In this document: one piece after another, positions 49,549 through 51,787 of the stretch | Layout: every line of letters begins with the position of its first letter | How positions within the stretch are numbered: position 1 is the stretch's first letter | Assembly (NCBI GenBank): GCA_009773565.1 | Contig: WSXY01000005.1 | Coordinates: 1 to 64,000, forward strand | From: Actinomycetota bacterium | GTDB taxonomy: Bacteria > Actinomycetota > Coriobacteriia > Anaerosomatales > Anaerosomataceae | DNA length: 64,000 nucleotides | Direction of reading: 5' to 3' | Program-made: the position numbers and the translations under genes | Notes under the pieces: model-generated | Told to the model about the DNA's origin: nothing | What the model saw: only the letters and a program-made list of their open reading frames with translations | Databases searched by the model: none

Positions 49549-49642
49549 ACGTTCCTCCGTGGCATTCGAGGCGCGAGTTCGCGAGCGTGAAGAATACACC
49601 CCGGCGCATCGACGTGGCAAGGAACCCGCGAGGCATCGATGT

Positions 49643-49658
49643 TGCTATACTGGTACCC
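49643..49658 (+). promoter_or_regulatory. Extended -10 element directly before the PASTA gene (leaderless start)
   Basis: TGCTATACT is an extended -10 box, ending seven bases before the ATG at 49659. Transcription would start at or next to the A of the ATG, so the mRNA is probably leaderless. No Shine-Dalgarno sequence is present. Confidence 0.6.
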
Positions 49659-50711
49659 ATGAATGAACGTCCGCGCCGCCGTCCGCTTGTCCCGCGATGG
49701 CTCATCATATCCGTCATAGCCGCGATCGTTATCGTGATCCTTGCGGTCGCGGGAGTGGTGTTGACGCTTCGCTCAGGGCTAATCGCGGTGCCTGCACTGA
49801 CGGGACGCTCGGGAATCGAGGCACATGCGGTCCTCGAGAACGCAGATCTTAAGATGATCGACGGCGGTCAGCGATTCTCTGTCACGGTGCCCAGGGGCTC
49901 GGTCATTTCCCAGGAGCCGACCGCCGGCAGCCTCGTCCGCCGTGGCGACGTCGTGACGGTCATCGTGTCAGCTGGCTCCGAGTCGCAGTCGATGCCTGAT
50001 GTCGTCGGCCTGGCAATTCAGAAGGCGCAATCACAGTTGCAGTTGCTCGGTTTTCGCGTGACCGTCGAGACAATCGAGGCGTCAGCAACCGAGGGCACTG
50101 TCATGGAATCCTATCCTGCAGCCGGTTTTGAGGTCCGTAGTGGCACGAACGTGCGCCTGAGCGTCGCAGGTCGCTCGCTATCGTCATCAGCCCTGCTCCC
50201 GTACAAGATGGACGGAATCACGGTCCTTCTCGATCCGATTCCGGTTTCAAACGGCACCGATGTCACCCTCGAAGTCTCTCGCAGGCTTCAGGCACTTCTT
50301 GAGGCCTCAGGCGCACAGGTTGTCGTCACCAGAAGTGCTACCACAACCGCAACATCATCGGGCGATCGTGCCGCGGTTGCCCGGGAAACGACAGCGAACG
50401 TTGCGGTTGTGCTCGATCTCGCGCTCAGCGGTCCCGGTGGCCTCCAGGCGACCCTCAGTTCCTCGACCAACCCCAGTGCCACCGCACTTGCTGCAGCGAT
50501 CACCGAGGCAGTCCGTACGCCATCGCAAGTTGTTATCGCGCCCGGTACCTCCGCGAATCCCACGCTCGCTGCGACAACCGCACCGGGAGTCCGGGTCGTT
50601 CTCGGCAACCCTCGTGCTGCGGACGATACCGCACACTTCGCGGACCCGGCATGGGCTGATACTGTTGCACGCGCCATATACCGCGCTCTTGGCACAGGCT
50701 TCGGAAGGTAG
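49659..50711 (+). CDS. Membrane protein with two PASTA domains and a degenerate amidase_3 domain
   Basis: This 350-residue protein has an Arg/Pro-rich cytoplasmic start, one membrane segment (about 14-37) and an extracytoplasmic part. Two PASTA repeats follow (about 42-108 and 110-173; VPALTGRSGIEAHAVLENADL and MPDVVGLAIQKAQSQLQLLGF). From 185 on the fold pattern matches N-acetylmuramoyl-L-alanine amidase (LLDP, TLEVSRRLQALLEASGAQVVVTR, DRAAVARETTANVAVVLDLAL). The zinc ligands (GHGG His, Glu, and the His of SIHAN) are all replaced, so it should not cut peptidoglycan. It could sense or bind cell wall, or partner another enzyme. The M23 peptidase is next. Confidence 0.8.
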   Translation: MNERPRRRPLVPRWLIISVIAAIVIVILAVAGVVLTLRSGLIAVPALTGRSGIEAHAVLENADLKMIDGGQRFSVTVPRGSVISQEPTAGSLVRRGDVVTVIVSAGSESQSMPDVVGLAIQKAQSQLQLLGFRVTVETIEASATEGTVMESYPAAGFEVRSGTNVRLSVAGRSLSSSALLPYKMDGITVLLDPIPVSNGTDVTLEVSRRLQALLEASGAQVVVTRSATTTATSSGDRAAVARETTANVAVVLDLALSGPGGLQATLSSSTNPSATALAAAITEAVRTPSQVVIAPGTSANPTLAATTAPGVRVVLGNPRAADDTAHFADPAWADTVARAIYRALGTGFGR

Positions 50712-50749
50712 CGGATTCCTGTGAACGACATCAACGACATCGGACGATC

Positions 50750-51787
50750 ATGACGAGACTGAGCGGCACGCGAGCGTACAAATGGATTGTTGCGGTGTTA
50801 GTCGTCGCCGCAGTTATCGTGCCTGCCGCGTCCGCACTTGCAGCCAAGACTCAGGTCCAGCAGCTGAAGGATCAGCTTGCCGGGCTGCGCGCCGAGTCAA
50901 AGCGTGCAGGTGACGCCTACTCCAAAGCGTACTGGGCGCTCGACGCGACCAATGAGAAGCTCGCGAGCACGAACAGCCAGCTTGCCGACACCCGGGGGAA
51001 GCTTGCGAAGGCCTCCGCGCGCCTCGGAACACATGCCGCCGAGATGTACCGCCAGGGCGAGATTGATTACCTGGCGCTGCTCCTGACCAGCGATACGCTC
51101 GATGACATGCTCCTACGGCTCGAGTATGTCAGTCGTTTGGGACAACAGGAGGCCGAGGTAGTCGGCGAAGTCACAGCCCTCCAGACTGACCTCGTCCAGC
51201 GCAAGGCCGATATCCTCGCCATAAAGAACGATCAAAGTGCCAAAGCCAAAGAGCTCAAGAAGAAGGCCACGGCGCTCGACAAGAAGCTCAAGGGGGTTCA
51301 ATCCGACTACGAGCGAATCCAAAAGGCCCTCGACGCGGCGCTCAAGAAGGATAATCCCGGCGGTGGAAGCACACGACGCTATCCCGCCGGGCCGAACGGT
51401 ATGGTTTTTCCGGTTCAGGGCTCGTACTACTATTCGGATACCTGGGGTGCATCCCGCTCCGGTGGCCGACGAACCCACAAGGGAACCGACATCATGGCGA
51501 GGAACGGCACGCCCTGCGTCGCTGTCCTTGCGGGTACCGTTCGTGCAAAGAACAACTCTCTTGGTGGCAAGACCATCTGGCTCACAGCCAAGAACGGCTG
51601 GACATTCTACTATGCGCACCTGTCGTCGTTTGTTCGCTCGTCCGGCTCTGTCCAGGCGGGTGAACTGATAGGGCGAGTGGGATCGACCGGCAACGCGTCG
51701 GCAAGCTCTCCACACCTTCATTTTCAGATCCATCCTGGTGGTGGCTCTCCTGTGAACCCGTATCCGTACTTGCGGAAGATGGAATAG
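50750..51787 (+). CDS. M23 (LytM-type) peptidase with coiled-coil domain
   Basis: The product has 345 residues. A signal peptide or anchor occupies about 1-31 (WIVAVLVVAAVIVPAASALAA). Residues 33-200 are coiled coil, like EnvC/FtsX-partner and NlpD-type hydrolases. The C-terminal M23 domain has RTHKGTDIM (first zinc His and Asp) and SPHLHFQI (the HxH ligands), and YYAHLSS, so it looks active. It would cleave peptidoglycan cross-bridges outside the cell. The upstream PASTA/dead-amidase gene ends 38 bp before, so the two may act together at division or growth sites. Confidence 0.9.
   Translation: MTRLSGTRAYKWIVAVLVVAAVIVPAASALAAKTQVQQLKDQLAGLRAESKRAGDAYSKAYWALDATNEKLASTNSQLADTRGKLAKASARLGTHAAEMYRQGEIDYLALLLTSDTLDDMLLRLEYVSRLGQQEAEVVGEVTALQTDLVQRKADILAIKNDQSAKAKELKKKATALDKKLKGVQSDYERIQKALDAALKKDNPGGGSTRRYPAGPNGMVFPVQGSYYYSDTWGASRSGGRRTHKGTDIMARNGTPCVAVLAGTVRAKNNSLGGKTIWLTAKNGWTFYYAHLSSFVRSSGSVQAGELIGRVGSTGNASASSPHLHFQIHPGGGSPVNPYPYLRKME

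Follow-up and report, generated by a model that had tools for sequence, protein, structure and literature searches.

The window analysed here, a 64,000-nucleotide stretch at the start of one contig (C17) of a 2.27-Mb genome, encodes a PASTA pseudo-amidase (PSA) whose C-terminal domain is predicted to keep the Amidase_3 fold and to have lost its catalytic residues (Table 1). We favour the reading, with a probability of about 0.55, that PSA is a conserved pseudo-amidase acting as a membrane-anchored, peptidoglycan-engaging, non-catalytic scaffold or regulator. A non-catalytic role is probable because the domain has a real Amidase_3 fold, lacks the catalytic residues in alignment, is conserved and evolves under purifying selection. 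In the proposed mechanism, the hydrophobic helix would anchor the protein, with the Arg-rich tail probably in the cytoplasm, while the two PASTA domains and the dead Amidase_3 domain on the outside would engage peptidoglycan, muropeptides or a wall enzyme without cutting. Most likely, PSA would thereby localise or tune wall remodelling without catalysis of its own, as a scaffold or regulator, and one frequent, dispensable partner may be the adjacent M23 peptidase.

Table 1. Positions of PSA, its domains and replaced residues, and neighbouring features in the window
Feature	Position	Strand	Remarks
Divergent promoter-like site (TTGCCA, 18, TATTCT)	49591-49620	-	Points to the fmdB-like gene
Extended -10 element TG-C-TATACT	49643-49651	+	Seven bases before the PSA ATG; predicted leaderless or near-leaderless start
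PSA gene	49659-50711	+	ATG start, 350-aa ORF
Short Arg-rich tail of PSA	49659-49694	+	Probably cytoplasmic (inferred topology)
Hydrophobic membrane helix of PSA	49695-49775	+	Model helix 13-39
PASTA domain 1 of PSA	49785-49970	+	Pfam
PASTA domain 2 of PSA	49992-50168	+	
Predicted Amidase_3-fold domain without catalytic residues	50211-50708	+	Residues 185-350; Pfam, alignment, superposition
P195 at zinc His1 position	50241-50243	+	Alignment
G199 at zinc Glu position	50253-50255	+	Alignment, ambiguous here
D253 at zinc His2 position	50415-50417	+	Alignment
V314 at catalytic Glu position	50598-50600	+	Alignment
M23 peptidase	50750-51787	+	345 aa, probable coiled coil; metal motifs intact; frequent, not obligatory neighbour

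Domain architecture and predicted fold

Pfam detects PASTA in two stretches of PSA (E 3.7e-27), in agreement with the two domains claimed in the earlier note. These domains lie beside the hydrophobic helix 13-39, as in a PASTA-domain membrane protein; the PASTA and amidase parts are probably extracytoplasmic. The short tail before the helix has the consensus RERPxRRPLIPRW among PSA relatives. The C-terminal domain matches Pfam Amidase_3 (PF01520) with an E-value of 9.5e-12 and 45.7 bits against a cut-off of 27, and the match spans residues 200-344, corresponding to profile positions 23-172 of 174.

An AF2 model of PSA built with 28 sequences reached a mean pLDDT of 85.9, while its pTM of 0.51 leaves the mutual arrangement of the domains uncertain. 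Residues 185-350 of the model superpose on the Amidase_3 crystal structure 4rn7 with a Z-score of 23.4 (rmsd 2.0 A over 165 residues) and on 5emi with a Z-score of 22.2 (rmsd 2.0 over 161). The amidase-like fold proposed in the earlier note is thus borne out by structure prediction and superposition on Amidase_3 crystal structures.

Loss of the catalytic residues

The same note had described the domain as lacking all three zinc ligands. Alignment confirms their replacement by P195, G199 and D253, and the catalytic Glu is gone too, with V314 in its place. Across 73 aligned PSA loci, which include the window's own and omit from the total of 75 two loci cut by contig ends (L064 and L083), neither His1 nor His2 occurs at all; the zinc Glu appears in seven, in a column that is ambiguous, and the catalytic Glu in one. 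The intact PASTA-amidase paralogue was compared at 30 loci, a subset of the matches found in 56 of the 69 genomes of the order, with at least one locus (from G047) taken from a genome that lacks PSA. It carries His1, His2 and the zinc Glu in all 30 and the catalytic Glu in 29. In 2 of the 73 PSA loci a different His is found no more than four columns from the His1 position, and in 4 this is so for the His2 position; 38 of the 73 have no His anywhere in the domain.

The loop from the DP of strand 1 to helix 1 has a median of 8 residues in PSA (range 7-21) versus 38 in the intact paralogue, and in a second intact amidase of the window's genome it has 17. Given this last value, we do not claim that the loop was cut from 38 to 8 residues as an event. 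Taken together, alignment and model predict an Amidase_3 fold without catalytic residues.

Distribution, conservation and selection

Orthologues of PSA were identified in 75 of the 296 genomes of the class. Within the order, 63 of 69 genomes have one, in four cases truncated by a contig end, and the family contributes 25 of its 27 genomes to this number; a further two are found in family f17, eight in f20 and two in f21. No PSA was found in the remaining six of these 69 genomes, and four of the six are 73-90% complete. In the other two, G047 (96% complete) and G022 (99%), the locus itself lacks the gene, so PSA is not required everywhere.

Purifying selection maintains PSA across the order. 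Whole-gene dN/dS lies between 0.06 and 0.26 in 12 of the 13 computable pairs; values of 0.07-0.16 come from the four pairs whose dS is below 1, and those of the other eight of the 12, with dS above 1, are rough. For the amidase-like domain, dN/dS is 0.04-0.27 in 10 of the 13 pairs. Decay to a pseudogene was rejected as an explanation, because the gene is conserved in 75 genomes and its dN/dS is far below 1.

Residues were compared between 61 PSA rows of the order and 30 rows of the intact paralogue. Several positions are retained in common with intact amidases, namely D192 (61/61), R225 (60), R237 (60), G261 (61) and G316 (61). A second set characterises PSA, being common in the dead form and outside the four commonest residues of the intact form: R208 (57/61), R312 (59/61), W332 (59/61), Y341 (59 of 60) and P195 (54/61). 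D201 (61/61) and R209 (59) are likewise well conserved in PSA, each being present also in 5 of the 30 intact amidases. The conserved PSA residues could serve folding alone.

Among the matches listed in a search of the phylum (396 genomes), those outside family f1 cover the PASTA region only and end at or before profile position 197 of 356. Four genomes of this set with short PASTA frames were inspected by eye (G575, G491, G560 and G457) and represent an intact amidase, a truncated kinase and, in two cases, unrelated PASTA proteins. Among the matches listed in the class search, full-length PSA occurs only in families of the order and in f17, f20 and f21, with the caveat that a distant form could hide among the PASTA matches of kinases. 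In 10 genomes from other families of the class, no called ORF after rsmB matches PSA at E <= 1e-8, a threshold that also missed a mini form in genome G014. This mini form, of 242 residues (L160, 8486-9214, minus strand), occupies the gene place of PSA and by eye has a single PASTA domain and an amidase-like part that is much shorter, a reduction that fits a structural role as well as binding. At another locus (L066, 5182-8563), what reads by eye as the start of a leucyl-tRNA-synthetase-like ORF occurs at both 5182 and 6020, and a partial match to PSA separates the two copies; the repeat is either a tandem duplication or a misassembly.

Genomic context and the M23 neighbour

Reading of the ORFs between 43116 and 60490 of the window gave the order priA-def-fmt-rsmB-glpX-PSA-M23-thiT-TPK-asp23-DAK-recG, which we take to recall a Bacillota cluster with prkC at the place of PSA. 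The surroundings are stable: of the 72 loci for which 1.2 kb upstream of PSA is available, 71 have rsmB or glpX on that side, and of the 67 with 1.2 kb downstream, 60 have thiT, TPK, an HD-GYP gene, asp23 or DAK there.

The gene that follows PSA after a gap of 38 nt encodes an M23 peptidase with an intact PF01551 domain (E 1.7e-23), in which the motifs THKGTD, YYAHLS and PHLHFQ, presumably the metal motifs of the M23 family, are readable. As far as sequence can predict, the active neighbour described in the earlier note is therefore present. For its probable coiled coil the matches found are weak, with CC_PcsB at E 9.4e-4 and 19.4 bits, below the cut-off of 27.

The earlier note had further suggested that PSA regulates this enzyme, in the manner of known activator and hydrolase pairs. 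In its strict form, PSA would be the dedicated activator, inhibitor or tether of the adjacent peptidase, a reading we consider unlikely, although it stands first among the alternatives. M23 lies directly downstream of PSA in 44 of the 75 loci, and the short gap in the window points the same way. However, 25 loci whose downstream sequence extends for at least 1 kb do not have it next to PSA, and the other 6 of the 75 stop at a contig end or close to one. A full-length M23 homologue, assigned by similarity, is encoded on a different contig in 10 genomes, namely 8 of the 9 of family f3 (43-46% identity), G087 and G143. At E <= 1e-40 no M23 homologue was found in f6 (4/4), G095, G105 or the PSA-bearing genomes of f20 (8/8) and f17 (2/2), several of the genomes with a separated or missing M23 being incomplete. 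Conversely, G047 keeps M23 between fmdB and thiT and has no PSA, and G022 has neither gene at the locus. The pair is therefore common and not obligatory, since adjacency holds in 44 of 75 loci and each gene occurs without the other. A fixed or obligate pair was rejected as a rule, the genes having separated in both directions, and M23 is a frequent but dispensable neighbour of PSA.

Two further observations bear on this regulatory reading. Coiled-coil hydrolases have a better-known type of activator in FtsX, and an FtsX extracellular domain is encoded in the window's genome (E 3.7e-21), which speaks against this reading. In genome G575, from another class, an intact Amidase_3 protein with two PASTA domains, a lipoprotein by eye, is encoded directly upstream of an M23 peptidase related to that of the window (L167, 2795-5200). 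Such pairing is thus possible, but G575 is the only one of 23 related intact-amidase loci to show it; the short flanks of the 22 further loci in that class contained no M23 match.

Alternative roles of PSA

Second among the alternatives, and doubtful, is a modulation of the PASTA kinase PknB, in which PSA would compete for or present the same muropeptide ligand. The PASTA-kinase model NF033483 matches residues 13-171 at E 6.2e-27, although its 94.8 bits fall below the cut-off of 450. The PASTA part also matches PknB structures, and a 625-residue frame on another contig has four PASTA domains and, by eye, a kinase-like beginning. Against this role, PSA shares the possession of PASTA domains with further proteins encoded in the genome, including the intact amidase.

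Gene position suggests a related idea. Bacillota keep the PASTA kinase prkC at the corresponding gene place, and PSA might act as a kinase-free peptidoglycan receptor, its PASTA domains and dead amidase sensing wall fragments outside and its conserved tail signalling to a cytoplasmic partner. We regard this as improbable and rank it third.

Less likely still is a partnership with the intact PASTA-amidase paralogue in which PSA would be the non-catalytic member, for example in a heterodimer or as a competitor for substrate sites. The two proteins share their layout of tail, helix, PASTA and amidase fold, and the paralogue is widespread in the order (56 of 69 genomes). Against this, its gene lies on another contig, and none was found at E <= 1e-20 in five near-complete genomes that bear PSA (G025, G043, G051, G065 and G073).

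That PSA is still an enzyme, with a different chemistry in a rewired pocket, is very improbable. In its favour, the conserved charged residues D192, D201, R225 and R312 lie near the former active site in sequence, D192 and R225 being common to intact amidases. Against it, the zinc histidines are absent with few or no His left in the domain, the loop where two ligands should sit is short, and the G014 domain appears further reduced. For the preferred reading of a non-catalytic scaffold or regulator, we infer peptidoglycan binding from the domains only.

Relation to known systems

The nearest precedent found is CwlM (Rv3915) of mycobacteria. It is described as an amidase homologue with unconserved key zinc-coordinating residues and an essential role that is regulatory; a mutant with none of the four zinc-coordinating residues still complements, and the protein works in the cytoplasm, on MurA (PMC4946905). 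A second source notes that two essential catalytic residues are absent and that activity is disputed, with hydrolysis in a 2005 report and none in a later one (PMC6180346). CwlM and PSA thus share a degenerate Amidase_3 site. Whereas CwlM is cytoplasmic and regulates MurA, PSA has the membrane helix 13-39 and PASTA domains, and all four of its catalytic positions are changed; it is probably an extracytoplasmic variant of the pseudo-amidase theme.

EnvC-type activators have the LytM/M23 fold, not Amidase_3. EnvC activates amidases, whereas in the case of PSA the dead protein is itself the amidase. The likeness lies in the lost hydrolase site and in a regulatory role, which for PSA is a proposal; for the degenerate LytM activators both features are described in the case of EnvC (PMC4946905). 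PASTA kinases (PknB/PrkC) resemble PSA in having a single helix followed by PASTA domains, but PSA has no kinase domain and carries a dead amidase at its far end. The intact paralogue (contig C8, L087 4265-5368) is alike in its Arg-rich tail, membrane helix, PASTA and Amidase_3 fold; it differs in having one PASTA domain, an intact zinc site at 30 of 30 loci, another tail signature and the 38-residue loop.

To our knowledge, few regulators built from dead wall hydrolases are known, CwlM and EnvC being examples. No description of a PASTA pseudo-amidase was found in the titles and abstract openings searched, which cover the literature in part. As PSA is conserved across an actinobacterial order, usually together with an intact paralogue, it offers a natural comparison for the role of a non-cutting amidase fold. 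The first cultivated members of Anaerosomatales, which is probably this order, have been reported (PMC9686372), so genetics may become possible.

Probable cytoplasmic tails

In 50 of 66 PSA tails, the stretch just ahead of the helix carries a pattern of R, 0-3 residues and [LFM][IVL][PSA], versus 3.3 (maximum 9) in shuffles; 9 of the 75 loci gave no usable tail. Since this predicted tail is conserved, a cytoplasmic contact through it is possible. Another pattern, R[PSEL]x(1-2)R, fails to separate PSA (53/74) from the intact paralogue (15/30).

The tails of the intact paralogue (L118-L147) show [ST]RxxR in 20 of 29 related rows, versus 6.1 (maximum 14) in 500 shuffles. The strict form [ST]RxxR[RK] occurs in 7 of 29 and stays within its control (2.2, maximum 8). 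The [ST]RxxR signature resembles the GpsB-docking motif, given as SRxxR(R/K) in PMC6335420. A DivIVA-family protein is encoded in the window's genome, and connecting either tail with DivIVA or GpsB would be a guess.

Transcription start and promoter region

A leaderless start had also been suggested for PSA in the earlier note, from an extended -10 box seven bases before the ATG. The arrangement is as described, with TG at 49643-49644, TATACT at 49646-49651, seven bases and the ATG at 49659. A longer ORF from a GTG at 49587 was discarded, as relatives and the conserved -10 box favour the ATG. In family f1, an in-frame start codon is preceded at 6-8 nt by TATA(A/C)T with a TG extension at all 25 loci, 19 of which have a spacing of 7 nt, and a Shine-Dalgarno-like tetramer is present at none of the 25. 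This supports the suggestion, as a prediction from sequence only, and PSA transcription fits a leaderless or near-leaderless mode. Leaderless transcription is common in actinobacteria.

Beyond this family the signal is less regular. A -10 box at 4-10 nt was present in 47 of 74 PSA loci, versus a mean of 4.4 (maximum 10) when the upstream sequence was shuffled 200 times. Both scan and control accepted any start in frame close to the expected position, and the loci, being related, are not independent. Outside f1 the box occurs in 22 of 49 loci, and 27 of the 74 overall have none. In the window, a box of this kind lies 6-8 nt ahead of some start for 5 of the 47 called genes, of which PSA alone has a full match. 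On the minus strand, the divergent promoter-like site, for which one was found versus 0.7 expected in shuffles and which is thus weak alone, sits upstream of the PSA -10 box.
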